33,927 nucleotides of DNA from Acidobacteriota bacterium. Its GTDB lineage: Bacteria; Acidobacteriota; Terriglobia; Bryobacterales; Bryobacteraceae. Every line of letters begins with the position of its first letter. Positions within the stretch are counted from its first letter, which is position 1. The translations under genes were made by a program, and so were the position numbers. Below, piece by piece: positions 15,481-32,610 of the stretch. Under the pieces are notes generated by a model that ran no database searches, was not told the origin of the DNA, and saw nothing but the letters and a program-made list of their open reading frames with translations. The stretch covers positions 1 to 33,927 of the forward strand of contig VFZY01000047.1 in assembly GCA_016870915.1 (NCBI GenBank). Reading direction: 5' to 3'.

Positions 15481-15507
15481 CGCGGGCGTCTGGAGGGATC
15501 GCCCGCG
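15481..15507. terminator. Possible bidirectional hairpin between convergent genes
   Basis: CGCGGGCG (15481-15488) pairs perfectly with CGCCCGCG (15500-15507) across an 11-nt loop. It lies in the 193-bp spacer between the convergent ABC exporter and amidohydrolase genes. No T-tract follows on either strand, so termination is a weak inference. Nothing else convincing was seen in 15340-15532. Confidence 0.3.
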
Positions 15508-15532
15508 GCCCAGGCATTTCAGGCCCTCGCGT

Positions 15533-17242: not shown

Positions 17243-17257
17243 GCCAGTGATGGTACA

Positions 17258-17500: not shown

Positions 17501-17756
17501 GTTCATCTCGCTGCTCAGCCGGTCAACAAGCTATGCCCGAGCCGGCCCATATCCGGCGTTCGGCGGCCGCGATTGTTCTTTGTGCTTCATTTTGTTGCCG
17601 CCACTCAGTCCGCATCTGTGATCGCAGTGTTTGTGCCGCGAGTGCGGTGATGGAACTGATCGAAGGCCGGGCCATGATCCTTGGACTCAATTCCACCGCT
17701 CCATCGTCGTCCCAGGGACAGACTCTAAACACGACGTCAGGCATTGCCTGAAGCGC

Positions 17757-17762
17757 TATCAT
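17757..17762 (+). promoter_or_regulatory. -10-like box before the secreted helical-repeat protein
   Basis: CGCTATCAT ends 8 nt before the ATG at 17771. There is no Shine-Dalgarno sequence. It is nearly identical to the box before the ABC exporter (GGCTATCAT, also 8 nt from its ATG). Confidence 0.4.
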
Positions 17763-17770
17763 GCAATCAA

Positions 17771-19414
17771 ATGAGAGCCGCCATCCTCGCCGGCGTCTGC
17801 CTGGCCACGTGGCTCGCGCCCCCGGCGCGCCCCGCCTGGACCCTGTACCGTTCCGGACCCTTCGACGTCCTGACCAACACGGACCGCCGCGCCGCGCGGC
17901 AGGTACTGAATGAACTCGAACAGATCCGCCATGTCCTGGGCCAGATGCTCGGCCGCCAGGACCTTATGGCGCCCTGGCCGCTGCGCGTGGTGATCGGCGG
18001 AAAGAACGGAACCGCCATCCAGCCCGCCCTCTCCCGCGATAGCTTTCGTGCTTCCCTGCCCGGAGCCACCCTGCCGCCGGCCTGGCGCCGCCCGGCGATC
18101 CGCCTGCTCCTCGAAGGTGCTCCGGGCCGTTTGCCAGAGGCGTTCGAAACCGGACTCGTCGATCTCCTTTCAACCATTGATGTCAAGGAGACCAATATCT
18201 TCCTGGGAGCGCCGCCGGAGGTCTCGCGGCGAACGCCGGAGTGGGCCCGGCTGCAATATCTCGCCACCGCTCCCGAGTATCAGAGCCGGTTCCGCGTGAT
18301 TCTGGCCAACCTTCAACAGGGCAATCCCTTTGGGGTGGCTTTGCGCGCCGCCCTCCAGTTGTCCGAGGCGGAACTCGCCTCCGCGCTCACCGGGCACATC
18401 CCGGCGGCCGTCCGCTATTCGGCCCGGCCACTCAATGCTGACAAGGACTTCTCCCCCCGGGAGCTGACACCGGAACTGGCCGCCCTGGCCGAAGCCGAAA
18501 CGCTTCTCGCCAGCCCCGCGCACGCGGCGGAAACCCGGCGGGCATGCGGGGCGCTCGGAACGCCGGAAGGCCAGGAGTGCCTGGGGCTGCTGGCCCTGCG
18601 TGAGGGCAACGCGGCGGAAGCGCGCAGGATGCTGGCGGCGGCTTCCGGCCCGCGTGGCAAATTGGAGTTGGCGCGTCTCACCCGGGACGCGTCGCACGCC
18701 GCGACTGCGGCGGCACTCAAACCCGATTGGGCCGAAGCCTACTCGCTGCAGGCCGAACTGGCAACCGATGGAACGCAGCGTGCCGCGCATTGGAAGAGGG
18801 CCTATTCGTTGGCGCCGCGCAATGCCCAATACGCAGTGGCCGCGGCGCTTGCGCTGGCGGAAGCCGCCGACCATCGCGAGTCCGTCAAGGCGTGGGCCCA
18901 AGCCGAGCGCGCCACGCCGGATCCGGAGGCGCGGCAAAAGGTACGCGCGGCGCGGCTGGAGGCCGACGACCGGCGTCTGGCCGCGGAAGGCGAACAACGG
19001 CAGGCCGCCGCGGAGCAGAAGCAGCGGGAGCTTCAGCAGGTGAAAAACGACTCCATGGCCTCCATCCTCCGGGCCCAGAACAAGGCCAATGAAGGGCTAA
19101 AGCCCATGGACCCCAACCAGAAAGTGGAAGCCTGGTGGGATGGGCCCCAGCCCGATGCCCGCACAGCGGGCGTGCTCGAACGGGTGGACTGCCTGGCCGC
19201 GGGCATGGCGCGGCTCACCGTGCGGTCCGACAGCGGCAAACCCGTCTCGCTGCTGATTCGCGAACCCGGCAAAGTGGTCATCCAGGGAAAAGGCGAGTTG
19301 ACGCTGGGCTGCGGACCGCAGCGTCCGCCGCGGCGTGTGAGTGTGCAATACTTCGCTAAGCCCGATGCGAAACTGGCCACCGCTGGCGACGCCGCGGTGA
19401 TCGATTTTCCATGA
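17771..19414 (+). CDS. Secreted helical (TPR-like) repeat protein, function unknown
   Basis: This 547-aa protein was not assigned to a named family. A signal peptide (MRAAILAGVCLATWLAPPARP) is followed by an N-terminal segment WTLYRSGPFDVLTNTDRRAA. This resembles the opening of secreted acidobacterial proteins with a relic peptidase-like domain followed by tetratricopeptide-type helices. Ala/Leu/Glu-rich paired helices occupy about 230-400 (AEAETLLASPAHAAETRRAC, LLALREGNAAEARRMLAAAS). A charged, Gln-rich coiled stretch lies at about 405-440, and the last 90 residues form a beta-rich domain with two Cys. ATG at 17771 is preferred because it begins the signal peptide. Its TGA overlaps the MFS gene's ATG (ATGA), so the two are coupled. 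The role is unknown; protein-protein interaction in the periplasm is plausible. Confidence 0.8.
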   Translation: MRAAILAGVCLATWLAPPARPAWTLYRSGPFDVLTNTDRRAARQVLNELEQIRHVLGQMLGRQDLMAPWPLRVVIGGKNGTAIQPALSRDSFRASLPGATLPPAWRRPAIRLLLEGAPGRLPEAFETGLVDLLSTIDVKETNIFLGAPPEVSRRTPEWARLQYLATAPEYQSRFRVILANLQQGNPFGVALRAALQLSEAELASALTGHIPAAVRYSARPLNADKDFSPRELTPELAALAEAETLLASPAHAAETRRACGALGTPEGQECLGLLALREGNAAEARRMLAAASGPRGKLELARLTRDASHAATAAALKPDWAEAYSLQAELATDGTQRAAHWKRAYSLAPRNAQYAVAAALALAEAADHRESVKAWAQAERATPDPEARQKVRAARLEADDRRLAAEGEQRQAAAEQKQRELQQVKNDSMASILRAQNKANEGLKPMDPNQKVEAWWDGPQPDARTAGVLERVDCLAAGMARLTVRSDSGKPVSLLIREPGKVVIQGKGELTLGCGPQRPPRRVSVQYFAKPDAKLATAGDAAVIDFP

Positions 19415-20598
19415 AAAACTTTCCCATCCGCTGGTTCGTTGTCGCCGTCTTCGTTCTTTCCTCCTCGCTCAATTACCTGGACCGCCAGGTGCTGGCGGCC
19501 CTTTCACCCGCCATCATGGCGGAGTTCCAGTTGACCAATGAGGACTACGGCAGAATCCTTTCCGTCTTTTCGCTGGTCTACGCACTGGCTTCGCCCGCCG
19601 CCGGCCTGCTGCTGGACCGTTTGTCGCTCAACGTGGGAATCTCGGTCGCCGTCGGGTTCTGGTCGCTGGCGAACATGGCCCGCGGACTGACCAGTGGCCT
19701 GCCCGGCCTGATGGTGGCAAGCGCGGCGTTGGGGCTTGGCGAGTCGGGCGGGATTCCGGCCACGGGCAAGGCAGGCAACACGTATCTGGAGCCGCGCGAA
19801 CGGGCCCTTGGCGCCGGGCTCAGCCAGATTGGGCTCAGCATTGGAGCCGTGGCGGCGCCGTTGCTGGCCAACTACTGTCTGCGCAACTTTACCTGGCGCG
19901 AGGCCTTCCTGCTCACGGGCGCTCTGGGTTTTCTGTGGATTCCCCTTTGGCTGGGTGTCTCGCGTCTGGCGCCGAAGCAGTCCGCCGCGACGCAGTCTAA
20001 ACCGGAGCCCATCGGCGATCTGCTGCGCAGCCGCACCTTGTGGGGCTTTGTGCTGGCCAATCTCATGGCCATGGTGGTGTATTCGTTGTGGACGAACTGG
20101 ACCACCATCTACCTCACACGCGTCTTCAAGCTGCCCACCATTGAGGCCAACAAGCTGGCCGCCTGGCCCCACTTCTTCGCCTACTTCGGCGCCCTGACCG
20201 GCGGGTGGATCTCCTACCGGCTGATGAGCCGCGGCTGGGCGGCGCTGGACGCGCGGCGCCGGGCCTGTCTCATCGCGGCCATGGGGATTCTCACCACGGC
20301 GGCAGTGCCCCGGTTTTCCACGCCCACGGCGGCGGCGCTTGCCATCTCATTCAGCTTCTTCTGCTCCTCGGCCTGGAGCGTCAACCTCTACACGATGCCC
20401 GTGGATGCCTTCGGCGGACGGGCGGCGTTTGGAGTCTCGCTTCTGACCATGGCCTACGGGGTCCTGCAGTTTCTGATCTCACCCATGATTGGCCGCTCCA
20501 TTGACCGGTACGGCTTCGAAGGTGTCTGCCTGGTGGCGGCCGTCATGCCGCTGGCGGCCTACGGAGTGCTGCACCTGACGCGCCGCCGTGAAGCATGA
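19411..20598 (+). CDS. MFS transporter, ACS (hexuronate/anion) type
   Basis: This 395-aa inner-membrane secondary transporter has about 12 predicted membrane helices. The first helix and loop, LSSSLNYLDRQVLAALSPAI, match the anion:cation symporter (ExuT/GudP-like) group; GLGESGGIPATGKAGNTYLE and a central charged loop (about 195-210) also fit. The likely role is proton-coupled uptake of sugar acids or related organic anions; the specificity is inference. It overlaps the upstream secreted protein by ATGA (19411-19414) and the downstream rimI-like gene by ATGA (20595-20598), so all three are translationally coupled. Confidence 0.9.
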   Translation: MKNFPIRWFVVAVFVLSSSLNYLDRQVLAALSPAIMAEFQLTNEDYGRILSVFSLVYALASPAAGLLLDRLSLNVGISVAVGFWSLANMARGLTSGLPGLMVASAALGLGESGGIPATGKAGNTYLEPRERALGAGLSQIGLSIGAVAAPLLANYCLRNFTWREAFLLTGALGFLWIPLWLGVSRLAPKQSAATQSKPEPIGDLLRSRTLWGFVLANLMAMVVYSLWTNWTTIYLTRVFKLPTIEANKLAAWPHFFAYFGALTGGWISYRLMSRGWAALDARRRACLIAAMGILTTAAVPRFSTPTAAALAISFSFFCSSAWSVNLYTMPVDAFGGRAAFGVSLLTMAYGVLQFLISPMIGRSIDRYGFEGVCLVAAVMPLAAYGVLHLTRRREA

Positions 20599-21008
20599 CC
20601 ATCCGTGAAGCGACGGCGGAGGACACAGCGGCCCTGGCGGTGATTCAGGCTGCCGCTCCCGAGGCCTCGCACTGGCCCCCGGCGGACTACCTGGCGGGCA
20701 TCTGCCTGCTGGCTGAGGATGAGGGTTCTGTTCAAGGATTTCTGGCGGCGCGCCTGCTGGCCCCACCCGAGTACGAACTGCTCAATCTTGCCGTAGCCCC
20801 GGAGTACCGGCGCCGCGGGGTGGCACAGGCGTTGCTGACGGCGGCTCTCAGACGCTTTCCAGGCACCTGGTACCTGGAAGTGCGGGGGTCCAATGAGGCC
20901 GCAAGCCGGTTGTACCGCGGGATTGGCTTTGAGGAGATCCACCGCCGGAAGGACTACTACCAACACCCCGTGGAGGAGGGTGTTGTATTCCGCCGCGAGG
21001 CATGCTAA
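20595..21008 (+). CDS. rimI: GNAT acetyltransferase, RimI-like
   Basis: This 137-aa acetyl-CoA-dependent N-acetyltransferase is expected to acetylate the N-terminal Ala of ribosomal protein S18 if it is a true RimI. The GNAT core is clear: strand beta4 YELLNLAVAPEYRRRGVAQA carries the acetyl-CoA loop (R/Q-x-x-G-x-A as RRRGVA), followed by WYLEVRGSNEAASRLYRGIGF, whose N-E-A-A-x-x-L-Y-x-x-x-G-F pattern is RimI's hallmark (written in two parts: WYLEVRGSNEAA, SRLYRGIGF), and KDYY. The start overlaps the MFS gene by ATGA. The last codons contain the promoter for the next gene. Other GNAT substrates cannot be excluded. Confidence 0.88.
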   Translation: MTIREATAEDTAALAVIQAAAPEASHWPPADYLAGICLLAEDEGSVQGFLAARLLAPPEYELLNLAVAPEYRRRGVAQALLTAALRRFPGTWYLEVRGSNEAASRLYRGIGFEEIHRRKDYYQHPVEEGVVFRREAC

Positions 21009-21011
21009 AGT
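20983..21011 (+). promoter_or_regulatory. Promoter of the DUF465 gene, inside the end of rimI
   Basis: TTGTAT (20983-20988), a 17-nt spacer and TAAAGT (21006-21011) form a reasonable sigma70 promoter; the -10 overlaps the rimI TAA stop. It predicts a leader of about 120 nt before the ATG at 21137. The leader contains a small perfect hairpin, CGTCG/CGACG. Confidence 0.45.
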
Positions 21012-21136
21012 CAGGGCGTCGGGAGGCCGACGGTGACCTTCCGGCTTTGGAAACGAATGCCTGCCAATCCCGCCCGCCGGACCCCAACCAAACAATCAAG
21101 AGAGCCCGGTGCGGACCCTAAAGGAGAACACCGCTT

Positions 21137-21376
21137 ATGGAAGTAGCGAATCAGGAAGAACTGAAGGCGCACCTGATGGCCACCGATGAGGAGTTTCGCC
21201 GCATAGCGACTCAGCACTCGGAGTACAAGAAGCTGATCGAGGCCCTGGAAGCCCGCCCACACATGACCGAGCAGGAGCATCTGGAAGAAGTGCGGCTCAA
21301 GAAGTTGAAGCTGCGCCTGAAGGATCAGATGTCGGACATGATGGCGCGGTTCAAGTCCCAGCAAGTCCCGGTCTAG
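21137..21376 (+). CDS. DUF465/YdcH family small coiled-coil protein
   Basis: This 79-aa, highly charged, almost wholly helical cytosolic protein belongs to the DUF465 (YdcH/SlyX-like) family. It begins with ATDEEFRRIATQHSEYKKLI and continues with a Lys/Glu-rich second helix (HLEEVRLKKLKLRLKDQM), the pattern of a short two-helix hairpin. The family's function is not established. AAGGAG at 21120-21125 supports the ATG. It has its own promoter candidate, a long leader and a strong terminator, so it is an independent transcription unit. Confidence 0.9.
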   Translation: MEVANQEELKAHLMATDEEFRRIATQHSEYKKLIEALEARPHMTEQEHLEEVRLKKLKLRLKDQMSDMMARFKSQQVPV

Positions 21377-21406
21377 CTGCCATCAGGTGCGCCTGCACCG
21401 CGATCT

Positions 21407-21444
21407 GGCCCTGGCCCCTCCGCTTGAGGGCGCCGGGGCCTTTT
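21407..21444. terminator. Strong rho-independent terminator after the DUF465 gene
   Basis: GGCCCTGGC (21407-21415) pairs with GCCGGGGCC (21432-21440) with one G-T pair. The stem continues with CCCTC/GAGGG around a CGCTT loop and is followed by TTTT. The flanking genes converge here, so it may work on both strands. Confidence 0.85.
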
Positions 21445-21456
21445 CCATTTGGGGGC

Positions 21457-21825
21457 TCAGACGTGCTGATCCAACAGAATGGGGTTGCCATCAGGGTCCA
21501 CCGCGACAAGGCTTGCAGGCCCGGTGGTGGACTCGTCGGCTTCGCTCACCAGCGTCACGCCGCTGGCCTTGAGCTGGCGCTGGAGTTCGCGCACATCGGT
21601 GAACCCGGGAATCTGCCTGGCATCGGCATCCCACCCGGGGTTGAAGGTGAGAATGTTGCGATCGAACATGCCCTGGAAGAGGCCGATGATCGCTCCGCCG
21701 TTCCTGAGGATCAGATAGCCCTTGCCATCGCCCGCCATGACTGAAAATCCGAACTTCTCATAGAAGGCCTTTGAGGCTTCCAGATCCTTCACCGTCAGGC
21801 TGATTGAAAAAACTCCAAGTTGCAC
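21457..21825 (-). CDS. VOC (glyoxalase/bleomycin-resistance fold) family protein
   Basis: This 122-aa protein has one vicinal-oxygen-chelate domain made of two beta-alpha-beta-beta-beta units. VFSISLTVKDLEASKAFYEK is the classic first unit, and the end DPDGNPILLDQH is the classic second-unit metal region. Family members are metal-dependent lyases, dioxygenases, isomerases or drug-binding proteins; the function here is unknown. The start is GTG (21823-21825), set by AAGGAGG (21830-21837) that overlaps the TAA of the upstream rhomboid gene, so the two are an operon. Confidence 0.9.
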   Translation of the reverse strand: MQLGVFSISLTVKDLEASKAFYEKFGFSVMAGDGKGYLILRNGGAIIGLFQGMFDRNILTFNPGWDADARQIPGFTDVRELQRQLKASGVTLVSEADESTTGPASLVAVDPDGNPILLDQHV

Positions 21826-21835
21826 CCACGCCTCC

Positions 21836-22600
21836 TTACTGTGTCCAGTCGCCTGGATCGCGGCCCTGCTTTCGCATGTAGACCTGAAACTTGCGCCGCG
21901 CCCGCTCGACGCGCCAGCGCTTGTACATCGCCTTGGCGGGAGCCAGCAGGTTGCCCGTCTTGAAGCCGCGCCGCGAACGGATGGCGATGTAGCCGAAGAT
22001 CATGCCACCCAGGTGCGCCACATGGCTGACGCCGCTGCCTGAGGCGCCAAAGGTCATCAGGAACGAGATGCCGCCCATGATCAGCACCAGGTACTTGGCC
22101 TGGATGGGAAACAGGAAGCTGAACAGCACGGTTCGCGTGGGGAACAGCATCCCGTAGGCCATCATGACGCCATAGACAGCGCCCGAGGCGCCGATGGTTG
22201 GAACGCGGGGATCGCCGAACAGGAAGTTCGCCGCCACCACGCAGACGCCGGCGCCCGCTCCGCAGAGGAAGTAGAAGCGCAGAAAACGCTTCATGCCCCA
22301 TTCGCGTTCCACGTCGGCGCCGAACATCCAGAGCCCAAGCATGTTGAACAGGATGTGCATGATGTCCCCGTGCAGGAACAGGTAGCTCACCAGTTGCCAT
22401 ACCATCAACGCCTTGACCACCAGGATGGGGTATAGCTTGAAGTGGCTCAAAAACTCCACGGCGGGAGCAATCCGCAGTGCGGCCGCCATGTAATCCACCA
22501 CGAAAACAGCGGTTGTGATGATCAGAAGGTATTTGATGCCGAGGGGAACATATCCGGAGTAAGAGTACCCCGTATACCGGCTGCGCATGCCATACGCCAT
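21836..22600 (-). CDS. Rhomboid family intramembrane serine protease
   Basis: This 254-aa inner-membrane protease cleaves membrane-anchored substrates within the bilayer. Six to seven hydrophobic helices span about 22-210. The catalytic dyad is S139 (TIGASGAVYG, the GxSG motif) and H196 (VSHVAHLGGMIFGY). HGDIMHILFN provides the H82/N86 oxyanion pair, and the WMFGADVEREWG loop carries the Arg of the family. A basic C-terminal tail (about 205-254) extends into the cytosol. The residues are intact, so the enzyme should be active. A -10-like TATCCT lies at 22626-22621 on the minus strand, about 20 nt upstream. The substrate is unknown. Confidence 0.93.
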   Translation of the reverse strand: MAYGMRSRYTGYSYSGYVPLGIKYLLIITTAVFVVDYMAAALRIAPAVEFLSHFKLYPILVVKALMVWQLVSYLFLHGDIMHILFNMLGLWMFGADVEREWGMKRFLRFYFLCGAGAGVCVVAANFLFGDPRVPTIGASGAVYGVMMAYGMLFPTRTVLFSFLFPIQAKYLVLIMGGISFLMTFGASGSGVSHVAHLGGMIFGYIAIRSRRGFKTGNLLAPAKAMYKRWRVERARRKFQVYMRKQGRDPGDWTQ

Positions 22601-22650
22601 GAGGGTGAACCGACAACGCCAGGATATCAGATCGCCGCCCGTGCCCCAAT

Positions 22651-24171
22651 TCAGGCTTTCGCCGGGTGAGCTTCCTTCACGCCCGGCATGCGGTCCACGA
22701 AGCCGGCCTTGGTGCGCCGCAGTTCGGCGATGGCCTTCTGGCGCAGGCGCCGCAGCGTCGCCTGATGCTCGGGTTTGACGGCCAGGTTGTTGAGTTCATC
22801 CGGGTCCGTCTTGAGGTCGTAGAGTTCCTCGTAGTCGTGGATGAGCGGCCGGATGTACTTGAGATGCCGGTCGCGGATCATGACGTACCAGGGCACGCCG
22901 CCGTGCATCGCCTTCTCGCCGGTGGGGATGTTGTTGGTGTTTGACCCGAAGGTCTGGCCCGTGGCCACCATCATCATGGTGTGAGGCCATGGCGCCGCCG
23001 GGTTCTTGAGGAGCGGTGTCAGGTCATGCCCGTGCATCTCCCACGGCAGATCCAGCCCGGCGAACCTGAAGATCGTGGGCGGAATATCCACACCGCTCAC
23101 CGGCACGTCGCAGGTCTTGCCTTCGGGCACGGTGCCCGGCATGGAGAAGATGAGCGGCGAACGGACATTGGCGTCATAGCCCGCGATCTTCACGCCCTTG
23201 AATCCATGCTGGCCGAAGGCGAGCCCCTGGTCCGAGGTAAAGATCACCAGGGTGTTGCGGCGCTGGCCGGTCTCTTCAAGCGCGGCCATGAGGCGCCCCA
23301 CGCCTTCATCGATGGCGTAGACACCCTGATGATACTGGCGCACCCAGGAGGTCAGCGTGCGGCCCTGCGACATGGGCGTGCCGTCGGGACCCTTTTCCCA
23401 CTGCGCGATTTTCTGCGCCCAGTCGGGCTTGCCTGGCCGCGGCGGAAAGACGTCTTTGGGTGTGTCGAAGTCGATGCCCGGCAGTTCCTGTTTGTGGCGC
23501 TCGGCGGGTTGATAGGGTCCGTGGACGGCGCCGTAGCAGAGCCAGAGATACCAGGGTTTCTCCTTGGGGCGGCCGTTGCCGCGGATGAGGTCGAGAGCCC
23601 AGTCCGTGTACTGGTCGGTGGAGTAGCGCTTGAGGATCTCGGTCTTGCCGCCGTGATAGGTGATGGGCTGGTCGTAGTAGTAGTGGGTGCTGGTTTCGGT
23701 GAACTTGGGGCGGTTCCATACCAGTTGGAAATCCCAGTCACGGCCGTAGCCCGTGTCGGTTCCGGTGTGCCACTTGCCGATCTGCGCGGTGAAGTAACCC
23801 TTTTCGCGGAAGACCTTGGGCCAGAACGGGCACTTGTCGGCCTCGTAGACGCAGCCCGGATACGGCCCTTCCATGCGCATGGACTCGACGGCGAACTGGT
23901 GGTGTCCGGTGAGCATCACGGCCCGCGACGGCATGCACCAGGCGGCATTGTAGGTGGCCGCGAACCGGACGCCCTGCTTTGCCAGCTTGTCAATGTTGGG
24001 CGTGCGCACCCAGGGGTATGCCTCCGGCCACGCCGAGATGGTGCGGTAGGAGTGGTCGTCTGTGTAGATGAAGAGGATGTTGGGGCGTTCAGGGGTGGCG
24101 GCGCCGCGCGCCAAAGCGCTGCCGGCCAGGGCTCCGAGAGCTTGGCGGCGAGAGAGATTTCCAGTGTTCAT
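22651..24171 (-). CDS. Tat-exported type I sulfatase (arylsulfatase-like)
   Basis: This 506-aa enzyme hydrolyses sulfate esters, probably of polysaccharides or small metabolites in the periplasm. The N-terminus SRRQALGALAGSALARGAA is a Tat signal. PNILFIYTDDHSYRTIS gives the first two metal-binding Asp residues. AWCMPSRAVMLTGHH contains the C-x-P-S-R formylglycine motif with C79 as the residue converted to formylglycine. IGKWHTGTDT and FTSDQGLAFGQHGFKG supply further active-site residues. GGAAGG just upstream supports the ATG. The maturation enzyme must be elsewhere. A candidate promoter lies at 24206-24201, inside the end of the preceding gene. Confidence 0.95.
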   Translation of the reverse strand: MNTGNLSRRQALGALAGSALARGAATPERPNILFIYTDDHSYRTISAWPEAYPWVRTPNIDKLAKQGVRFAATYNAAWCMPSRAVMLTGHHQFAVESMRMEGPYPGCVYEADKCPFWPKVFREKGYFTAQIGKWHTGTDTGYGRDWDFQLVWNRPKFTETSTHYYYDQPITYHGGKTEILKRYSTDQYTDWALDLIRGNGRPKEKPWYLWLCYGAVHGPYQPAERHKQELPGIDFDTPKDVFPPRPGKPDWAQKIAQWEKGPDGTPMSQGRTLTSWVRQYHQGVYAIDEGVGRLMAALEETGQRRNTLVIFTSDQGLAFGQHGFKGVKIAGYDANVRSPLIFSMPGTVPEGKTCDVPVSGVDIPPTIFRFAGLDLPWEMHGHDLTPLLKNPAAPWPHTMMMVATGQTFGSNTNNIPTGEKAMHGGVPWYVMIRDRHLKYIRPLIHDYEELYDLKTDPDELNNLAVKPEHQATLRRLRQKAIAELRRTKAGFVDRMPGVKEAHPAKA

Positions 24172-24200
24172 CGAGGTGCCTTCCGGTTGAAGTGGAAGTT

Positions 24201-24206
24201 ATTGTA
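24201..24206 (-). promoter_or_regulatory. -10 box of the sulfatase gene
   Basis: On the minus strand TGTTACAAT gives an extended -10 (TACAAT) about 30 nt upstream of the sulfatase ATG, just 3' of the preceding hydrolase's stop codon. The -35 region is weak. Confidence 0.45.
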
Positions 24207-24209
24207 ACA

Positions 24210-25259
24210 CTAGAGATTTCGCAGGAAAAACGACACGATATGGTAGCCGTCGATGAACTTGAACGGCGTTTCGCCCAGGGTGTAGTGGCCGCAGGGCAGG
24301 ACGACGACCCGGTGATCGATGCCGTGGCGGGCCACAAATGCGAGAATTTCGCGCGAAAACTCGGGTAAAAACGTCGTATCGTAGCGTGTATAGACGAACA
24401 GCGAACGCTTGCTGTGGCCGGCAAAGCGCTGCATGTAGCTCACCGGGCTGATGGCCTGCCAGACGTCGCGCAGGGAGTCGCGGTCGAGATTGCCTTCAAT
24501 GCTCTGCCGGATGTGGCGGGTGGAAAGGCCGGTCCAGACCACGTCGCCGAAGTGCGAGGAGCAGTGGTTGAAGACGTTAACCCGAAGCCGCGGGTCGTGG
24601 GCACTGGTGAGGAACGCGTAGCAGGAGCCGAGGCTGGTGCCAACGATCCCAATGCGCTCATAGCCCTGCAGTTCCAGCCAGTCCGCCGCGGACCGCGTGT
24701 CGATGACGGCCTGACGGGTGGCATCGATGGTGCGGGCGATGTTCGATGAGACGGCGTAGTCGGCGCGATGCAACTCCTCCGGCATGCGGTGATCGTGGTA
24801 CGGCAGGCTGAGCCGCAGCGCCGACAGGCCGAACCTGGCGAGCCCTTTGCAGAGCCCGGCATGCTGTCCGGCATGGGCATTCCAATGCGGCAGGACGATG
24901 ACAGCCCGGCGCGGGCGGCCCGGCTTTTCCTCGGCCGGGAACCACTGGGCGTGCACCGTGTTGTTCTTCCGGTGGGGTGTGGGCGCCGCCGTGGTGAACC
25001 TGACCATTCCATCGTCCAGGCGAAAGTCCGTGGGTGGTGTGTAGCCGTAGAAATCGCCGCTCTGGGCGATGGCGCGCTGATTCAGTTCGCGCAGCCAGGC
25101 GATTTCGTCGTGGCCATTGCGGTGCGCGCCGTTCGAGGTGGGCCAGTTGCCTGCCCAGTCCAGCCCCCATTCAAAGGGCCTCACCACGCGGTCCGTTGAG
25201 CGGAAGCAAAGTTTGTTTTCCCAGCGTTCGATCCACTGGCTGTAGATTTGTCCGAGCAT
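24210..25259 (-). CDS. Alpha/beta hydrolase family protein
   Basis: This 349-aa, probably cytosolic esterase-like protein has an alpha/beta hydrolase fold. VIVLPHWNAHAGQH supplies the oxyanion strand, IGIVGTSLGSCYAFL the nucleophile elbow (G-x-S-x-G as GTSLGS), FVYTRYDTTF the acid strand and VVLPCGHYTLG the catalytic His. No signal peptide is seen. The start is the ATG at 25257-25259; an open frame extends to 25466 but overlaps the next gene in a shadow frame. It could be an acyl- or acetyl-ester hydrolase acting with the adjacent sulfatase on decorated carbohydrates, which is inference. The leader holds a large hairpin (25280-25315). Confidence 0.85.
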   Translation of the reverse strand: MLGQIYSQWIERWENKLCFRSTDRVVRPFEWGLDWAGNWPTSNGAHRNGHDEIAWLRELNQRAIAQSGDFYGYTPPTDFRLDDGMVRFTTAAPTPHRKNNTVHAQWFPAEEKPGRPRRAVIVLPHWNAHAGQHAGLCKGLARFGLSALRLSLPYHDHRMPEELHRADYAVSSNIARTIDATRQAVIDTRSAADWLELQGYERIGIVGTSLGSCYAFLTSAHDPRLRVNVFNHCSSHFGDVVWTGLSTRHIRQSIEGNLDRDSLRDVWQAISPVSYMQRFAGHSKRSLFVYTRYDTTFLPEFSREILAFVARHGIDHRVVVLPCGHYTLGETPFKFIDGYHIVSFFLRNL

Positions 25260-25279
25260 CGATTGAGAAGTGTCGTGAG

Positions 25280-25315
25280 GGCTCCGGCGGCGACGCGATG
25301 CATGCCGCCGGAACC
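25280..25315 (-). promoter_or_regulatory. Large hairpin in the hydrolase leader
   Basis: Twelve-base arms (GGCTCCGGCGGC at 25280-25291 and GCCGCCGGAACC at 25304-25315, one imperfect pair) enclose a 12-nt loop. It lies between a minus-strand TACAAT (25324-25319) and the hydrolase ATG, so it could be a leader structure or, lacking a T-tract, the end of the upstream transcript. Confidence 0.5.
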
Positions 25316-25329
25316 CCCATTGTACCGTC

Positions 25330-28300
25330 TTACATCCGCACCGCTCGCGCATAGGGGCGCGGTTCGGCGATGGAGAGCCCATAGATGCAGACGTGATCGA
25401 AGGCCCAGAGGTTGACGATGGGGATGCCCACGCCGCGAGCCATGCGATACTCCTTCTCCCAGGCATAGCCTGCCCGGAAGACGGGAATCAGGTGCCGGAT
25501 GGAGTCCTTGGGCCATGCGAGCGCCAGAGGAAAGCCAATGGTGGACATGGCGAGATTGAGGTTGCGGGACCACGCCCCGAAGTCGAGCGCCTCCATCTTG
25601 AGGCGGTCGAATCCGCTGGTGGTTTTCTGTCCCCACTCGGCCGGGAAGTTGACATAGGCGTTCAGGCGCCCGCCGAGGTTGTTGGCGCCGGCGGGCGTGG
25701 GGTGGTTCACGTCGTGGGGATAGAGAAGTTCGATTTTCGCCGTCGGGTGAAGGCCGCGGACGTGCGCACCGAGGGCCGCGGCGTAGTCGCGCAGGCGATT
25801 GCGCAGGAAGAGCGCGTCGGCGCTTCCGTTCACGCCTGGGTCATTGTCGGGCCCGGTAAAGAGATGCAGCGGACGGCCCAGGGCGGCCTGGGCGGCGGTG
25901 GTGGTTTCCGAGTCGTAGAAGCCCATGCCGCCCGCCGGGTTCATCGCCGACTGGTTCGAGAAAGACCACCAGACGAACTCGCCAAACTGGACGTTGGGTA
26001 CCAGGAGCGAATCGGCCATCAGCCCGGCGATGCCCGCAAAAACCTGCTTCTGATAGTCGAGCATGGGAGTGGAGAAGGCACAATGGGTGGACATCAGACT
26101 GCCGAATCCCACCGAGGTGATGACCGGTTGATTGTCCGGGAAGCGCGCCGCGAAGGTGAGGGGCGGGTTCACCAGTTCCATGGACGAGGCGACGACAATT
26201 TCGCGATTGCGCAGCTTGCATTCGTCGAAGAGGTTGCGATGCCAGTCACGCGCGCCGCGGTTGAGCGCGGGGCTTTGCGACGGGTCCACTTCCCAGGTGC
26301 CGGGCTGGCCGCCGGAGAGTGACCCGGCCACGGTGACGGAACCGGAGGAGCCGGTGCCAGACTCCTTCCACGCCGCGATGGTGAAGCTATAGGCCGGCGA
26401 AGCCGAACGCTGATGAATCGTTAACACTCCACCGACAGCTTGCGCCCACACACCGACAAAGGTCTCATTGATGAAGTAGGCAAAGTGCGAGGCGATGATG
26501 GAGTTGTTCTCGTTAGGGAAGACGCTCTTGCCGATGACTCGGCCGCCGATGTTGACGAAAACGGCGTCGCCGGCGTCGAATGTGCCGGCGAGAGTGACGG
26601 TGGCGCTGGCGAGCATCCCACTGACCCGCTTCCGCTGGTTCCACCAAAAGACCCCGATGTATTCGTTCATGGGGCCGGTGAAGCCGAGTTTGTCGAAGTT
26701 CCAAAGCAGGCGCGCCGGCGTCAGCTTGTAGGTGTGATCGGTGGAGTAGTCGAGCGCGGGTGAGATATGGTCGCGCGCGGCGGGCGCATCGGGCACATCG
26801 CCGGGGACGGCGGCTTCAAGGAAGTCGAAGTAAAAGACCCCGGCCGTACGCTGCACGAGGGTTACGGAATGGATGCCGGCGGGAACGTTGGAACGAACCC
26901 GGCGGCGGGTGTTGACCTGGGAATCGGTGTCGAGATAGCAGTTGAGCTGGGTCTCGGTGTCGTTGTCCAGGCGGATGCCCACGGCGGCACGGTCCGTGTA
27001 GAGGGATGTGCCGAGATAAAGGTCATGGGTGGTGGCGCAGGAGTACCGGATGGTGACGGCCTGGCCAATGGCGTTGGCGCGGCGGGCCCAGCCCTGCGAG
27101 TAGAATCCCACCTCGGGCACCCAACCGGAGGTATAGATACACCAGGAGTCATCCTCTTCGACTCGCGTGCTGGCGGGTCCGGCTACCTGGAGAGTCTTGA
27201 GGGCCTCGGTGCCGGAAAGGGTCCAGTTGGTGAACTCGGCCTGCCACTCGGTATCGGCATAGGCGGCGCCGTTGGCGAGCCGCGGGGCGAAAGTGAGCCA
27301 CATCTGGCGAATGCGCGGCACACCCAGGGCGGCAAAGTTGAGGGTGACACGCCAGGTGGCATCCGAGATGCCGCCGGAGAATTGCGAAACGAACCCGCCA
27401 CCAGGGGCAAGCGCCTGAAGGCGCGTGTTCTTGGCCACGGAGTAGAGGGTGATCATGTTGCCGTCGTAACCCGGTTCGGCGGCGGTGATCTGTACCGTGG
27501 CGCCCGAGGCCACGGCTGTGATGGGGCCATCGACGCCGAGCGCAACCCAATTGACCTGGTTGATCTGGAGAGCGAGGTTGGCGGCGATGGTGGTGAGGCC
27601 CACGCTATAGAGCGTGAAGACGGCGGGGCCGGCCGTCGAAGAAACCGTGAATGCCGCGCCGTCCGAAGTGCTTGCCCGCAGGTTCACCTGATTGGCCGGG
27701 CCGAGTTCCGGGGAGCCATCACCCTGGATCGCCGAGACCAACGGGCAGGCCGCCAGCGCCGTGACAACCTTCAGGGCGACAGCGGTATTGGTGTCTCCCG
27801 AGGCTTCCACGGCCGAATACTGGACACCAGCCACGGTAACCCGATGCACGGTGCCCGCGCCTTGAGCCGTGAAGGCATAGGCGCATTCGATCTGGGGCAC
27901 AAGGTAGTCAAAGGCGAGGTTCTTGTACCAGAGGGTGACCCGGTCGAACTGCTTGAACGCCGCACCGGTGATGGTAAACGAACCCGAGGCGGCGGTGAGC
28001 GTGCCACCTACCTGCGTGGCGTTGGGCCGGAGCGGGATGGTGTGGCGAGTGCCGGATTCGGCGATGACGTCGAGATACGGCCAGTCGATGGTGGGGAACT
28101 TGGGCGAATCAAGCGGCATGAGGCCGGTGGAACGCATGTCGAACTGGAGGGTGAGTCCGTCGAAGTCGAAGTCGGGCAGGTAGCGCAGGCGCGGATGCTC
28201 GAAGAAGTTGTCGGCGTCGTGCAGGATGAGCACGGCGAAATCGGCCGGATCGCGGAAGACGCCGCTCACCTTGAACGAGTTGGCGGTGGCGGTGTGAACG

Positions 28301-28380
28301 GCCGCGGCCGCGCCGAGCGAATCGAACCCACGAAGGTGGAGGGTCCGGTTGGGTTGTAGTTTGTAGATCCGTTCTGGCAT
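25330..28380 (-). CDS. Large phage-tail-like protein with TIM-barrel C-terminus (non-contractile tail sheath-like)
   Basis: This is a 1016-aa protein with no signal peptide. Residues 1-170 are a characteristic N-terminal domain (MPERIYKLQPNRTLHLRGFD; later LPDFDFDGLTLQFDMRSTG). Three beta-repeats of the phage-tail style lie at about 181-249, 263-337 and 592-691; the second is clearest (AANLALQINQ, then EPGYDGNMITLYSV). Residues 340-525 look like jelly-roll, carbohydrate-binding-type sheets. Residues 705-1016 look like a TIM barrel, with VQFGEFVWWSFSNQSAMN around E801 and LYPHDVN. From memory this architecture matches proteins annotated as non-contractile tail sheath-like; no search was run. 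GGAG 5 nt upstream supports the ATG. No other phage gene is in the window, so it stands as an orphan. The function is unknown. Confidence 0.8.
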   Translation of the reverse strand: MPERIYKLQPNRTLHLRGFDSLGAAAAVHTATANSFKVSGVFRDPADFAVLILHDADNFFEHPRLRYLPDFDFDGLTLQFDMRSTGLMPLDSPKFPTIDWPYLDVIAESGTRHTIPLRPNATQVGGTLTAASGSFTITGAAFKQFDRVTLWYKNLAFDYLVPQIECAYAFTAQGAGTVHRVTVAGVQYSAVEASGDTNTAVALKVVTALAACPLVSAIQGDGSPELGPANQVNLRASTSDGAAFTVSSTAGPAVFTLYSVGLTTIAANLALQINQVNWVALGVDGPITAVASGATVQITAAEPGYDGNMITLYSVAKNTRLQALAPGGGFVSQFSGGISDATWRVTLNFAALGVPRIRQMWLTFAPRLANGAAYADTEWQAEFTNWTLSGTEALKTLQVAGPASTRVEEDDSWCIYTSGWVPEVGFYSQGWARRANAIGQAVTIRYSCATTHDLYLGTSLYTDRAAVGIRLDNDTETQLNCYLDTDSQVNTRRRVRSNVPAGIHSVTLVQRTAGVFYFDFLEAAVPGDVPDAPAARDHISPALDYSTDHTYKLTPARLLWNFDKLGFTGPMNEYIGVFWWNQRKRVSGMLASATVTLAGTFDAGDAVFVNIGGRVIGKSVFPNENNSIIASHFAYFINETFVGVWAQAVGGVLTIHQRSASPAYSFTIAAWKESGTGSSGSVTVAGSLSGGQPGTWEVDPSQSPALNRGARDWHRNLFDECKLRNREIVVASSMELVNPPLTFAARFPDNQPVITSVGFGSLMSTHCAFSTPMLDYQKQVFAGIAGLMADSLLVPNVQFGEFVWWSFSNQSAMNPAGGMGFYDSETTTAAQAALGRPLHLFTGPDNDPGVNGSADALFLRNRLRDYAAALGAHVRGLHPTAKIELLYPHDVNHPTPAGANNLGGRLNAYVNFPAEWGQKTTSGFDRLKMEALDFGAWSRNLNLAMSTIGFPLALAWPKDSIRHLIPVFRAGYAWEKEYRMARGVGIPIVNLWAFDHVCIYGLSIAEPRPYARAVRM

Positions 28381-28427
28381 GTCTGCTCCGAACCGAGTCT
28401 AGAAATGCCCTCCAAACGCGTTACGCG

Positions 28428-28454
28428 AAATCGCTTATTAAGTGACTGATTTCA
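28428..28454. promoter_or_regulatory. Nested AT-rich inverted repeat upstream of the tail-like gene
   Basis: GAAATC (28428-28433) pairs with GATTTC (28449-28454), and a perfect CTTA-T-TAAG lies inside at 28435-28443. It is 48 nt upstream of the ATG and could be an operator or part of the promoter. The 219-bp spacer 28381-28599 shows nothing else convincing apart from a T7 run at 28467-28473. Confidence 0.3.
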
Positions 28455-28599
28455 TAGCCAGAAGATTTTTTTGCGCGAGGCGTGAACGGCGAAATCGGGT
28501 TCCCACGGGCGGGGCTGACGAGGTGCCCGGCAAGCGGGCCTGGGGCCGGTCCGGGATCTCGTAGGAACGAACCCGGCGGGGGGAATTCCGGCCGCTACC

Positions 28600-29700
28600 A
28601 TGAAGGCCTTGTTGGAAGACACGGCCGCGCGGGCGGGGCGGTACCGGGCGGCGGTGGGCGGCATGCGGGTTGCTCCTCGGCCCGCCCGGTTGGAGGAGTT
28701 TGGCGGTCCTCTGCCGGACGGTCCCTCCGACCCCGGGGCGACGCTCGCGTTGCCGGATGACGTCGGTTCACCGGCCACGGTGGCGGCATCCGGTGGACGG
28801 TACTCCGGACTCGTGATCGGGGGCGCGGTGCCCGCCGCCACGGCGGCCCACTGGCTGGCGGGGATCTGGTACCGATGTCACCGGTTGCCGCCAAGGTGGA
28901 GGAAGTGGTGCCGGCCTGGATTGGCGAGTTGCTGGGTCTTCCCCGCTCCGCCGGCGCGGGCTTTGCGACCGGGACGACCAGGCCAGTTTTTCAGCCTTGG
29001 CAGCGGCCCGAACCGCGTTGTTGCAGCGCGTCGGGTGCGTGGTGGTGGGAGAGGTGGCTCACGTCACGGTGTTGAAGGCGCTGGCGATGCTGGGACTGGG
29101 CCTGCGCGCGCGGGAGGCGGGAGCGTGGGTGCATGTAGATGGCGCGTTCGGGCTTTGGGCGGCGGTATCGCCCCGCTATGCGCCGTTGGTGGCAGGCAAC
29201 GGCTTGGCCGATTCGTGGGCGATTGACTGTCACAGGTGGCTCAAGGTGCCCTACGACTCGGGGTTGGCGTTGGTGCGTTCACCGGAGCACCTGCGGAAGG
29301 CGTTGGCGCTGACGGCGGCCTACCTCTTCGAGGCGCGCCCGGGGTATCGAGATCCGGGCCGCGATGCGCTTGCTGGGGCGTGCGGGGTTGAGGGATCTGA
29401 TCGAGCGCAACTGCCGGTTCGCCCGCGTTTTCGCCGAGAGACTTAGTTAGGAATGCTGGATTCGAGGTCTTGAACGACGTGATGCTCAACCAGGTGCTGG
29501 TTTCCTTTGGCAGCCCGGCGGCGACTCAGCGCGTGATCGCCGGGGTGCAGGCAGACGGGACATGCTGGTGCGGCGGGACGCAGTGGCAGGGGCGTGCCGC
29601 GATGCGGATCAGCGTTTCAAGCTGGGCGACCACGGAAGAAGATGTGGAGCGCAGCCTGGGGGCCATGCTCAGGATTGCGGGCGGCCGGGAGGCGCGCTAG
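28600..29700 (+). pseudogene. Decayed PLP-dependent (group II-type) decarboxylase/aminotransferase
   Basis: A recognisable fold-type I PLP enzyme is broken across three frames. Frame 1 (28600) reads ALLEDTAARAGRYRAAVGG and ends near ATAAHWLAGIW. The next piece, SPVAAKVEEVVPAWIGELLG, is in another frame from 28875. FSALAAARTALLQRV to LKALAMLGLGL is in a third frame from 28988. About 70 residues are then missing before AREAGAWVHVDGAFGLWAA. EIRAAMRLLGRAGLRDLIER (from about 29349) is shifted again and meets a TAG at 29448, and NAGFEVLNDVMLNQ to ATTEEDVERSL finishes in frame 1. The PLP lysine in the H-K-W motif is Arg (AGG at 29234-29236, in DCHRWLKVPYDSG). At least four frameshifts, one large deletion and a lost lysine make it non-functional. 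Its TAG overlaps the stop of the convergent permease gene. Confidence 0.85.
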
Positions 29701-32270
29701 TCCCCGTCCCGGCGGAGCGCAGCTATCGGATCCAACGTGAACACCTGGCGCGAGGGCCAGTAACAGGCGGCGAGAGCCGCGGCCAGCATCAGCAGCGCCG
29801 CGCCGCCAAGGACGCCATGGTTTGAAGGTGGGACACCGAATAGCAGGCTTTGCGCAAGCCGGCTGAGAGCCACCGCGCCCGCGGCACCCGTGGCGGCGCC
29901 CACCGTGGCGGGCCTAAGGACAGAGAGACAGACGGACTTCACGATGTGCGCGGGCGGCGAACCAAGGGCAAGGCGAATCCCAAACTCCTTGGTGCGTTGC
30001 GCCACCGAATAGGCCGTAACGCCATAGATTCCAAGGCACGCCAGCAACAGAGCGACGGCAGCGAAGGCCGTCAGGAGCCGTGTGTAGAGTTCCCGCGTTT
30101 CCCACTCCGCGCCGATGACATCGGGCAGGGGCCGTATGTTCGAGATGGTCTGCTGTGGGGCGACGGCGAGGATCTGGCGCCGGACGGCCGATGTCATGGC
30201 GGCAGGGTCGCCGTGTACCCGCACGGCGAGCCAGGATGGCGCCGAGAACATCGCCTTCACCTGGCGGGGAGAGACATAGAAGATTGCTTTCGGCGGGACG
30301 GCGAGCCCCATTTCGCGCACATCCGCGACGATGCCAGCGATGCGCATCCAATGCCCTTCACTCGTGCGAATGCGTTGGCCCAACGCCTCTTCACCCGGAA
30401 AGAAATGCCTGGCCAACGTCTGGTTCACAACGACGACGGGCTCCGCCCCGGCGGAATCGGAATCGGCAAGGCCTCGCCCGCGCAGGATGGGGATGCCCAG
30501 CGTCTGGAAGTAGGCGGGAGTTACCTGGCGGTGCAAGGCCTCCTGCCCGGGCCGGGCAGGGCCCCGGCCTTCGATTTCAAAACCGCTGGTGCCGCCCTTC
30601 CACATGAGCGGAATGGCAGACATGTAGGCCGCCGACTCCACGCCGGGCAGCGCCTGCACGCGTTCGAGGACTGCGTCGTAGAACTGGTTGCGGCGTTCGA
30701 ACGTGATGCTATCGGGATTCAGCGCGGTGAGCATGGTGAGGACACCGGCCGGCCGCACGCCGGGGTCGACTGACCTGAGGTGAAAGAAGCTCTGAATGAG
30801 GAGGCCGGCCCCGGTCAGTAGCACAAGAGCCATGGCTGTTTCCAATCCGATCAGCACGACGGATGCGGACCGCGTGGTTCTGGCGGAATGCGCCGCGAGG
30901 CGTGCGCGCAGGCCTGACCGCGCTGACCGCCAGGCCGGCCACCAACCGGAGAGCAGGGCCGCGGCAAGGGTGGATGTGGCCAGGAAGCCGAAAACCCGAT
31001 AGTCGAGCGCGAGTTCGGTGGAATGAGAGAGACCGCCAGGGATCAGCTTCCTCAGCAGAACAAATCCCGCCTGGGCGATGAGCAATCCCGCGGCACCGGC
31101 GATGGAGGCAAGCATCAGGTTTTCGGTGAGAAGCTGCCGGATGAGGCGGCCGGCGCCTGCCCCCAACGACGCGCGCACGGCCAATTCACCGCCGCGGCGC
31201 ATGGTTCGGGTGAGCACCAGATGGCTGGTATTGGCGCAGGCAATCAGGAACAGACACGCGACTCCCCCCAGCAGAGCAAGATAGCTGGGCCGCACCTGGT
31301 GCGTGAGTTGATCGCGCAGGGATGTGAGCACGGGCTGAAGGTCTTCATTCTCACGCGGGTGCTCGCGTTCCAGCCGCTGCGCGATGGCCCGCAGGTCCTG
31401 ATTGGCGGCTTCGAGGGTCACTCCCGGTTTGAGCCGGCCCACGGCATGGAGGTAGCGATTGCTGAATCGTGAATAGCTTCTTTCCTCGAGCGCCAGGGGC
31501 ACCCAGAATTCGGTGTTGCCATCGACGAACTGCCAGCGCCGCGGCATGACACCAACCACGGTGCGCGGGCGCCCGCTCATGAGCACCTTGCGTCCGATGA
31601 GTGATGCATCGCCGCCGAACCGGCGTTGCCATAGGCCGTGACTCAGAATGACCACACCGTCGCGGCCGGGGGTCTCTTCGTCCGGCGTGAACAGGCGGCC
31701 GATGGCGGGCTGTACACCGAGCAAGGGGAAGAGACCCGGGCTGATGATTTGCCCGTCGAGCCGCTCGGGCTCTGCATCGCCCGTGAAGTTGGCGGTCATT
31801 TGGTAGTACGCGCCAATCCCTTCGAGTGTCGTGTTGCCCTCGCGCCAGGCGCGGAAGTTACCAGGGGAAAAATCCCCGCGGGGAAAGCCGGTTCGTGCGT
31901 GATCCTCGTAGAGATAGACGAGGGCAGCGGGATCGCGAAAGGGGAGCGGACGCAAGAGCACGGCATCGATGAGGGAGAAGATCGCCGTACCGGCGCCAAT
32001 GGCGATGGCGAGCGTTCCTGAAGCAAGCAGGGTGAATCCTGGCTGGCGCACCAGGCCGCGGAGGCCGAAGCGCAGATCCCGCAGCAGGTGATCGAGAGCC
32101 GTGAAACCCCACGCCTCACGGCTGCTCTCCACCAGGACCGCGGCCCGCCCGGTTCGCGCCGCGCCGCGCTGTTCGATGTGCAGGGCGATCTCTTCCTCAA
32201 GCTCGGCGGTGAGCTGCTCCCGTCGCCGGAAGGCGTTCCAGCGCCGCGCCCATTCGTCCCACAGGGGCAT
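29697..32270 (-). CDS. ADOP-type MacB/FtsX ABC permease
   Basis: This 857-aa integral membrane protein is of the acidobacterial duplicated orphan permease type, with no ATPase of its own. After a short cytosolic N-terminus containing ELEEEIALHIE (about 24-34), a first MacB_PCD domain begins at the membrane segment GFTLLASGTLAIAIGAGTAI and is followed by FtsX-like helices (about 340-450). A second periplasmic domain (about 500-720) and FtsX unit (about 730-850) repeat the layout and end DPIAALRRDGD. The likely role is mechanotransmission or export of an unknown substrate with a separate ATPase. Its ATG lies 1 nt after the PadR stop, so the two genes are an operon under PadR control. The family and its PadR pairing are typical of Acidobacteriota. 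Confidence 0.93.
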   Translation of the reverse strand: MPLWDEWARRWNAFRRREQLTAELEEEIALHIEQRGAARTGRAAVLVESSREAWGFTALDHLLRDLRFGLRGLVRQPGFTLLASGTLAIAIGAGTAIFSLIDAVLLRPLPFRDPAALVYLYEDHARTGFPRGDFSPGNFRAWREGNTTLEGIGAYYQMTANFTGDAEPERLDGQIISPGLFPLLGVQPAIGRLFTPDEETPGRDGVVILSHGLWQRRFGGDASLIGRKVLMSGRPRTVVGVMPRRWQFVDGNTEFWVPLALEERSYSRFSNRYLHAVGRLKPGVTLEAANQDLRAIAQRLEREHPRENEDLQPVLTSLRDQLTHQVRPSYLALLGGVACLFLIACANTSHLVLTRTMRRGGELAVRASLGAGAGRLIRQLLTENLMLASIAGAAGLLIAQAGFVLLRKLIPGGLSHSTELALDYRVFGFLATSTLAAALLSGWWPAWRSARSGLRARLAAHSARTTRSASVVLIGLETAMALVLLTGAGLLIQSFFHLRSVDPGVRPAGVLTMLTALNPDSITFERRNQFYDAVLERVQALPGVESAAYMSAIPLMWKGGTSGFEIEGRGPARPGQEALHRQVTPAYFQTLGIPILRGRGLADSDSAGAEPVVVVNQTLARHFFPGEEALGQRIRTSEGHWMRIAGIVADVREMGLAVPPKAIFYVSPRQVKAMFSAPSWLAVRVHGDPAAMTSAVRRQILAVAPQQTISNIRPLPDVIGAEWETRELYTRLLTAFAAVALLLACLGIYGVTAYSVAQRTKEFGIRLALGSPPAHIVKSVCLSVLRPATVGAATGAAGAVALSRLAQSLLFGVPPSNHGVLGGAALLMLAAALAACYWPSRQVFTLDPIAALRRDGD

Positions 32271-32271
32271 C

Positions 32272-32610
32272 TTAAGCCTCGCTTTCGATGACGCGGCCGA
32301 TCGCCGCCATGACGCGTGAGAAGCCCGATAGTTCGCGGGCCAACTGCTTTCGCCCCGCCGGCGTGAGCCTGTAGTAGCGGGCACGCCGGTTGTTTTCTGT
32401 TTGCCGCCATTCGCCGAGCACCCAGCCCTTGATCAGCATGCGCTGCAATGCGGGATAGAGGGTGCCTTCCTCAACGCGGAGAACATCTCCCGAGGTCTCC
32501 TCGATGTGCTGGGCGATGCCATAGCCATGCATGGGCCCAAGGCGGGCGAGTGTCTTGAGCACGAGCATGTAGAGAGTACCTGGCGGAATTTCGGCGTCAT
32601 GTCTTTGCAT
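32272..32610 (-). CDS. PadR family transcriptional regulator
   Basis: This 112-aa winged-helix repressor has a core reading PGTLYMLVLKTLARLGPMHG, then YGIAQHIEETSG and VEEGTLYPALQRMLIKGWV, the full PadR N-terminal domain with the GTLYPAL signature. The C-terminal helix (about 85-112) mediates dimerisation. It heads a two-gene operon with the downstream permease and probably represses its own promoter. The ligand is unknown. Confidence 0.93.
   Translation of the reverse strand: MQRHDAEIPPGTLYMLVLKTLARLGPMHGYGIAQHIEETSGDVLRVEEGTLYPALQRMLIKGWVLGEWRQTENNRRARYYRLTPAGRKQLARELSGFSRVMAAIGRVIESEA

Follow-up and report, generated by a model that had tools for sequence, protein, structure and literature searches.

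What does a large phage-tail-type gene do when it stands alone in a bacterial chromosome? This question is raised by a 33,927-nucleotide stretch of DNA, hereafter the window, from an Acidobacteriota bacterium of the family Bryobacteraceae (assembly GCA_016870915.1, contig VFZY01000047.1, positions 1 to 33,927). The reverse strand of positions 25330..28380 encodes a 1016-residue protein, P0001, from an ATG start that has a GGAG a few bases 5' of it; no prophage genes were found around this gene. Our answer is that P0001 is probably an exchangeable sheath or receptor-binding subunit, supplied in trans to a domesticated tailed particle that resembles gene transfer agents (GTAs).

P0001 is a real protein, far beyond chance, as it passes two Pfam cut-offs and has many relatives. 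Residues 25–98 (28087..28308, reverse strand) match the NCTSP_N domain PF23844 with 36.6 bits against a cut-off of 27 (E = 3.5e-9), and residues 702–832 match TIM-barrel_NCTSP PF23845 with 49.6 bits against a cut-off of 27 (E = 3.9e-13). An AlphaFold model built from a 43-row alignment reached a mean pLDDT of 93.4 and a pTM of 0.88. When this model was searched with Foldseek, the best solved matches were tail chains of phage N4 (E = 7.5e-11 and 7.9e-11); VIA-align gave Z scores of 27.2 over 321 residues for chain 9yf5_SA and 26.0 over 298 residues for chain 9lc0_M, followed by the GH42 enzyme 1kwg (22.6) and PgaB (21.9), with GH35 also at about 20–22. A search of solved structures with the 43-row profile retrieved the N4 chain 9lc0_M, named Gp64 (E = 9.1e-9), whereas the same kind of search with the single sequence retrieved nothing. 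Among predicted viral proteins the closest was from Acinetobacter phage IMEAB3 (E = 5.6e-28), and the first five matches also included a Goslar tail protein and two NCTSP-domain proteins. PHROGs assigned P0001 to phrog_6040, of unknown function, NCBIfam returned no family for it, and a search of a phage collection gave 29 records, all weak matches and none spanning 80% of the query. The Pfam cut-offs and the barrel fold of a solved sheath subunit identify P0001 as a non-contractile-tail-sheath-like protein (NCTSP family).

Between these two matches lies a carbohydrate-binding-module-like beta jelly-roll at about residues 400–530 (26791..27183, reverse strand), of which residues 417–515 resemble the carbohydrate-binding module MiXBM (7ehg; profile E = 4.2e-4, Foldseek TMt 0.62). 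The TIM barrel with an inserted beta domain occupies about residues 536–1010 (25351..26775, reverse strand), as indicated by PF23845 and by the N4 and GH42 fold matches; we set the borders of both regions ourselves. The sequence-only reading of this locus had described a tail-type protein with beta domains, a jelly-roll and a TIM barrel, and the Pfam domains and the confident model bear this out, the fold being both tail-like and TIM-like. It had also seen no signal peptide, and by eye we agree that the N-terminus, MPERIYKLQPNRT, is not one.

That reading had further found no capsid or tube gene nearby. This holds within the window, though not for the genome, and the impression of a protein without partners is not supported: the genome carries a structural cluster of about 14 kb on a different contig, apart from the P0001 gene (C41, about 15043-28996), with a single capsid gene at C41:18821-19729 and a tail hub gene at C41:25088-28990. 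Clusters of this kind run in the order terminase, portal, scaffold, capsid (~303 aa), connectors (named by gene position), tube, a small protein, a tape-like protein, two DUF2460 proteins, a J-like hub (~1310 aa) and then, in many genomes, an NCTSP gene of a second type, type B. The head genes match profiles for the large terminase subunit TerL (phrog_2, 6e-34), portal (phrog_145, 8e-49), scaffold (phrog_206, 8e-9) and a P22-like capsid (phrog_283, 9e-39), and the tail genes match phrog_290, DUF2460 and, in the J-like hub, Phage-tail_3. Genes were called with a home-made codon-usage caller, so starts are approximate and some genes were missed. The tape-like protein (~170–260 aa) groups by BLAST with longer proteins, one of which matches tape-measure profiles that the short form itself does not match; one genome (G068) has a 601-aa protein at the tape position. 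As a side observation, the tape-like gene L041:16232-16939 and its equivalents grouped with ~830-aa proteins of the phage-like clusters L054 and L056, as if shortened. No integrase, replication or lysis genes were recognized between TerL and hub, where several small proteins match no profile, and no integrase was found among the ten proteins scanned in the window's genome (eight flanking, two in the cluster), to which the scan of flanks was largely confined.

The capsid gene of the cluster is widespread in the family. It was matched in 198 of 237 Bryobacteraceae genomes, covering 70 of 76 genera, and most of them have a single copy (in G592, one of these genomes, the match is only distant); it is 71–87% identical over its full length among the near relatives compared. 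Among 396 genomes of the phylum 15 match, 13 of these only at 22–31% identity. In IMG/VR at least 583 stretches were confirmed for the cluster capsid; the best 80 of them lie on contigs of at most 18.7 kb, many being short pieces, and 652 of the 719 genes called in these loci match cluster or flank references. IMG/VR contigs carrying NCTSP relatives reach 85 kb. Separately, one genome (G043) has a second full-length hub (L366, C176), 52% identical to the query hub, with no NCTSP gene in the remaining 3.0 kb.

Relatives of P0001 were matched in 61 of 101 genomes searched, and in many Bryobacteraceae genomes they share 47–64% identity over most of the length. A tree of 47 NCTSP rows resolves three main groups. 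The type-A orphans, P0001 among them, form one clade (27 rows, SH-aLRT 99), and the A-like genes of other phage-like clusters branch outside it; the orphans that we read lie outside prophages. Type B proteins are about 910 aa long in Bryobacteraceae, and their genes adjoin the cluster hub. Type C comprises four rows beside other hub-like genes; these genes (L045–L048) encode 1134–1279 aa, and in L045 the next gene has a CBM_4_9 domain. Ratios of non-synonymous to synonymous change (pN/pS) in seven orphan pairs, one of them saturated, range from 0.14 to 0.42, the lowest being 0.14 (L022/L023, dS 0.54) and 0.21 (L029/L030, dS 0.42).

The P0001 gene takes the place of the missing last gene of the C41 cluster. 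In the window's genome the cluster sits between Isc-type genes (an Rrf2 regulator, a class-V aminotransferase, a NifU-like protein and Hsp70) and a Wzt-ABC/POT/M24 block, with the Wzt gene directly after the hub and no NCTSP gene there. Fourteen other type-A-orphan genomes and G011 likewise have no NCTSP gene after the hub, and tblastn searches with A and B past the hub in 15 type-A loci, the window's genome included, found no NCTSP trace in the 2.4–9.2 kb read. Wzt adjoins the hub in nine of these 15 genomes, with M24 as well in eight (the contig of the ninth, G048, stops there), and in an additional type-A genome, G532. The same Wzt block follows type B in two of ten type-B genomes (G055 and G034), the remaining genomes having other flanks. 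Since the block follows either the hub or type B, these genomes at least differ in whether a single chromosomal site has the type-B gene or lacks it.

This local picture extends to a complementary distribution of the two types. The hub end was readable in 46 genomes, 44 of them in the family (the other two are G068 and G081): in 30, type B adjoins the hub (29 read, and G060 by coordinates), and 16 have none there and a type-A orphan elsewhere. No orphan A was found in the 30 type-B genomes, and a repeat search of eight of the 16 type-A genomes found no type-B gene. A-like genes do occur inside other phage-like clusters (G007, G027, G032 and G053) and at contig ends (G020 and G023, in the phage-type clade). 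The A/B state changed 11 times on the hub tree and nine times on the rpoB tree. The latter has seven independent pairs on starred branches, of which an average of 6.9 were opposite (sign test, p = 0.016); here G020 and G023 were taken as violations of the rule, G015 was scored as A with its hub end unread, and G056 and G058 were left out. These trees come from quick searches run without a mixture model, and a good many of their inner forks are unsettled.

The count of 46 is bounded as follows. Outside it stand G005 (hub not found); G015, G017, G038, G058 and G061 (contig ends or a split hub); G089, not in the family (hub without an NCTSP gene); G016, which is 62% complete (capsid and NCTSP pieces, no hub match); five genomes with weak or partial hub matches only (G009, G077, G085, G087 and G093); and eight in which an NCTSP gene was placed beside the hub by coordinates alone (G003, G014, G046, G049, G056, G059, G063 and G073). 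In G059, the type-B gene is split (C138:16302-30850), its pieces about 12 kb apart and the second containing stops.

We then examined 20 further genomes against a prediction fixed beforehand, and it held in 19 of them (18 of 19 without the already-read G386). Type B adjoins the hub in nine, G386 included, and type A stands elsewhere in ten, which leaves G614 as the one exception. Orphan neighbourhoods were read in all ten type-A genomes and hub ends in G597, G598, G532 and G642; the others were scored by coordinates. In G597, whose genome is a single contig, type A lies on the opposite strand from the hub and 2.2 kb beyond it. Extra NCTSP copies beside other hub-like genes were seen in G553, G605 and G648.

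Both parts of the system track their hosts. Mantel tests, which rest on one marker gene and quick trees, gave r = 0.67 for hub against rpoB (40 genomes, p = 2e-4; 0.63 with two outgroups), r = 0.667 for orphan A against rpoB (16 genomes, p = 2e-4) and r = 0.59 for orphan A against hub (14 genomes, p = 0.002). The simplest history is an ancestor with both A and B, only one of which was kept in each descendant lineage; transfer may also have played a part.

How such a cluster should be classed can be judged from six features listed for GTAs (PMC9662315). Three were found here: particle proteins derived from tailed phages, as the profile matches show; full endogenization, often across several loci, as seen in the host-gene flanks and in a sheath gene at another locus; and mostly vertical inheritance with host co-diversification, as the hub–rpoB Mantel test indicates. 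As the in-trans role is itself a deduction, the "several loci" part of the second feature rests on the distribution of A and B. The list also includes packaging of mostly random host DNA, an agent genome that cannot be packaged in full, and delivery of the DNA to other cells (PMC9662315). Because three of the six features are present and the other three need experiments, we call the system GTA-like rather than a GTA.

The same genes could instead be read as defective or slowly decaying prophages, with the orphan a functionless leftover. All profile-matched cluster genes are of phage type, phage-like clusters and IMG/VR contigs of the family carry A-like genes, and members in Bryobacterales have been described as proviruses (PMC11924767). 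Decay, however, sits poorly with a capsid kept in 70 of 76 genera, mostly in single copy and 71–87% identical among relatives, with host-tracking trees and a recurrent host-gene flank, with pN/pS of 0.14–0.42 in orphan pairs, and with the complementary A/B distribution. We regard this explanation as improbable and already disfavoured. Still less credible, to the point of being very improbable, is a headless or DNA-free tailocin-like weapon whose targeting subunit would be the orphan: a compact tail module in which the tip or sheath gene can be exchanged would suit such a weapon, yet capsid, portal, scaffold and terminase are retained in the same clusters.

GTAs are among the nearest known counterparts. 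The cluster shares with RcGTA, BaGTA and BhGTA a compact chromosomal layout, the absence of visible integration and replication genes, host tracking, a mostly single copy and parts at separate loci; a hub-end protein of about 1300 aa with a short tape is reminiscent of RcGTA. It differs from them in its P22-like capsid, in an N4-type sheath gene placed in the cluster or in trans, in belonging to a different phylum and in being known from genes alone. The BhGTA cluster, for scale, is 16.3 kb, and the few known GTAs are from alphaproteobacteria, a sulfate reducer, a methanogen and a spirochete (PMC9662315). The Bryobacterales "group (i)" proviruses of a 2025 study include IMGVR_UViG_639633060_000001 (PMC11924767), which is locus L260 of our analysis. 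That study calls them proviruses, the terms "gene transfer agent", "GTA" and "domesticat" are absent from its main text, and its parts covering group (i) say nothing of an unlinked sheath gene. In the relevant part of PMC5900883 "gene transfer agents" is just a general phrase. Judged by titles and the starts of abstracts, the open-licence PMC literature yielded no GTA described in Bryobacteraceae, and a text search of it found no paper with "non-contractile tail sheath" together with "TIM barrel". As far as these searches show, family-wide descent with an exchangeable in-trans sheath gene is unreported in that literature, and this would be the first GTA in Acidobacteriota, if it is a GTA.

The proposed role of P0001 takes its shape from phage N4, whose non-contractile tail sheath is a heterodimer of gp64 (minor subunit) and gp65 (major subunit) around the tail tube, with gp65 binding the receptor NfrA (PMC12633501, PMC12892993, PMC5862860). 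P0001 shares with the N4 protein a TIM barrel of the same fold, the QxGE..WW motif, which the profile alignment places in both P0001 and chain 9lc0_M, and glutamates at positions 735, 801 and 930 (P0001 numbering). It differs in combining barrel and beta domains in one 1016-aa chain, whereas gp64 and gp65 are separate, and N4 is a podophage, whereas the partner cluster in Bryobacteraceae is chromosomal with siphophage-type tail genes and the P0001 gene stands apart. By analogy with N4, P0001 would decorate or tip a short non-contractile tail and, like gp65, would bind a receptor, here a surface glycan that it might also trim, through its carbohydrate-binding-module-like domain and barrel. In about two-thirds of the genomes read, type B, the last gene of the cluster, would supply this subunit; in the others, including the window's, the type-A paralogue would supply it in trans from a separate locus, A and B presumably doing the same job. 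The particle would carry host DNA between cells and leave by lysis, a route that fits the absence of a signal peptide, and exchanging A for B would change which cells are recognized. The earlier suggestion of a domesticated tail protein, or a part of a contractile-free apparatus, comes close to this.

The barrel raises the question of enzymatic activity. The 43-row alignment has 29 invariant columns, including E735, Q798, G800, E801, W805 and E930. The codons of E735 (26176..26178), E801 in the QFGE motif (25978..25980) and E930 (25591..25593), all on the reverse strand, also align with glutamates in 9lc0_M. In enzymes of clan GH-A the catalytic residues are two glutamates, one ending barrel strand four, where it is the acid/base, and one ending strand seven. 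In the barrel, which resembles GH42, GH35 and PgaB (Z about 20–22), E801 lies at the end of strand four, as we number the strands from the DSSP string of the model; by the same numbering no acid is seen at the end of strand seven, in contrast to clan GH-A.

This likeness to glycoside hydrolases, the carbohydrate-binding-module-like domain and recurrent hydrolase and sulfatase neighbours would all suit another explanation, in which the orphan is an independent cellular protein that binds or cleaves glycans, with a function unrelated to any particle. We regard this too as improbable. It does not account for the presence of orphans in genomes that lack the hub-side gene, and a tail-type N-terminal domain has been retained with, by eye, no signal peptide.

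The neighbours in the window are those given in the sequence-only reading, namely a decarboxylase fragment, a hydrolase and a sulfatase (Pfam). Downstream lies an RcgR-like alpha/beta hydrolase (24210..25262, reverse strand; NF047337, 197.3 bits against a cut-off of 182), a recurrent neighbour of type-A orphans, which often stand before such a hydrolase or an uncharacterized ~290-aa protein. The pyridoxal-dependent decarboxylase fragment (PF00282) is at 28997-29446 on the forward strand; an open reading frame overlapping it, 28600-29226, had no Pfam match at E 0.001. An ADOP-family duplicated permease adjoins the fragment (29697-32384, reverse strand; TIGR03434, 853.5 bits). At the hydrolase neighbourhoods of nine type-B genomes and G028 no convincing orphan remnant was found in ten stretches, one of only 1.6 kb (best E = 0.49); without a remnant, insertion and loss are indistinguishable at those loci. 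Two further observations concern regulation. The RcgR family is a putative quorum-lactone hydrolase family whose members adjoin orphans in several genera, and RcGTA is quorum-regulated (PMC11841831); a link between the two is only suggestive. A 14-base sequence, AATCAG(C/T)CA(C/G)TTAA, occurs at 28438-28451 of the window (reverse strand) and at L052:7979, 58 and 86 bases from the orphan starts. In 2.3 Mb of fetched sequence it stands only before these two type-A orphans and before no cluster, L001 and L012 being copies of the same two places.

Several points weigh against an in-trans subunit of a GTA-like particle. The particle, its packaged DNA and the transfer are predictions from gene content. 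Vertical descent of both genes would by itself yield matching trees without joint function. No promoter motif common to orphan and cluster was found, the top 7-mers being within the shuffle range (four orphans and four clusters were not extracted). The window's own pair shows the weakest selection signal (window/L021, pN/pS 0.42, dS 1.1). A class-level relative, G089 (L190, C495), has a hub without an NCTSP gene after it, and the P0001 search found none in its genome; six genomes that have the cluster or an orphan could not be resolved. In G614 (L352, C28:9000-22000) an A-like gene stands directly beside the hub, counter to the wording of the prediction; because this gene falls in the phage-type clade, it appears to be a replacement in place, at the type-B position. 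The type-B genomes G651 (C12, with stops) and G605 (C85) also hold broken or partial A-like pieces, which are not placed in the tree. Finally, the test is not fully independent: its 20 genomes fall into 16 genera, eight of which the first set already contained, and in G593 and G604 the orphans are loci fetched earlier (L021 and L023).

Taken to the level of the family, we lean slightly towards the view that most Bryobacteraceae keep an ancient GTA with an exchangeable glycan-targeting sheath cassette (native type B, the phage-type gene in place in G614, or type A from elsewhere) that has been swapped repeatedly to change the recipients of DNA. Isolates with a related proviral region include "Ca. 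Solibacter usitatus" Ellin6076, Paludibaculum fermentans P105 and KBS 96 (PMC11924767). A family-wide, host-tracking GTA candidate in a major soil phylum would make horizontal gene transfer testable in little-cultured soil bacteria, and the repeated exchange of one subunit offers a natural experiment on what sets recipient range. More generally, the case is a warning that a phage gene standing by itself as an "orphan" may serve a particle whose other genes lie at a different locus.

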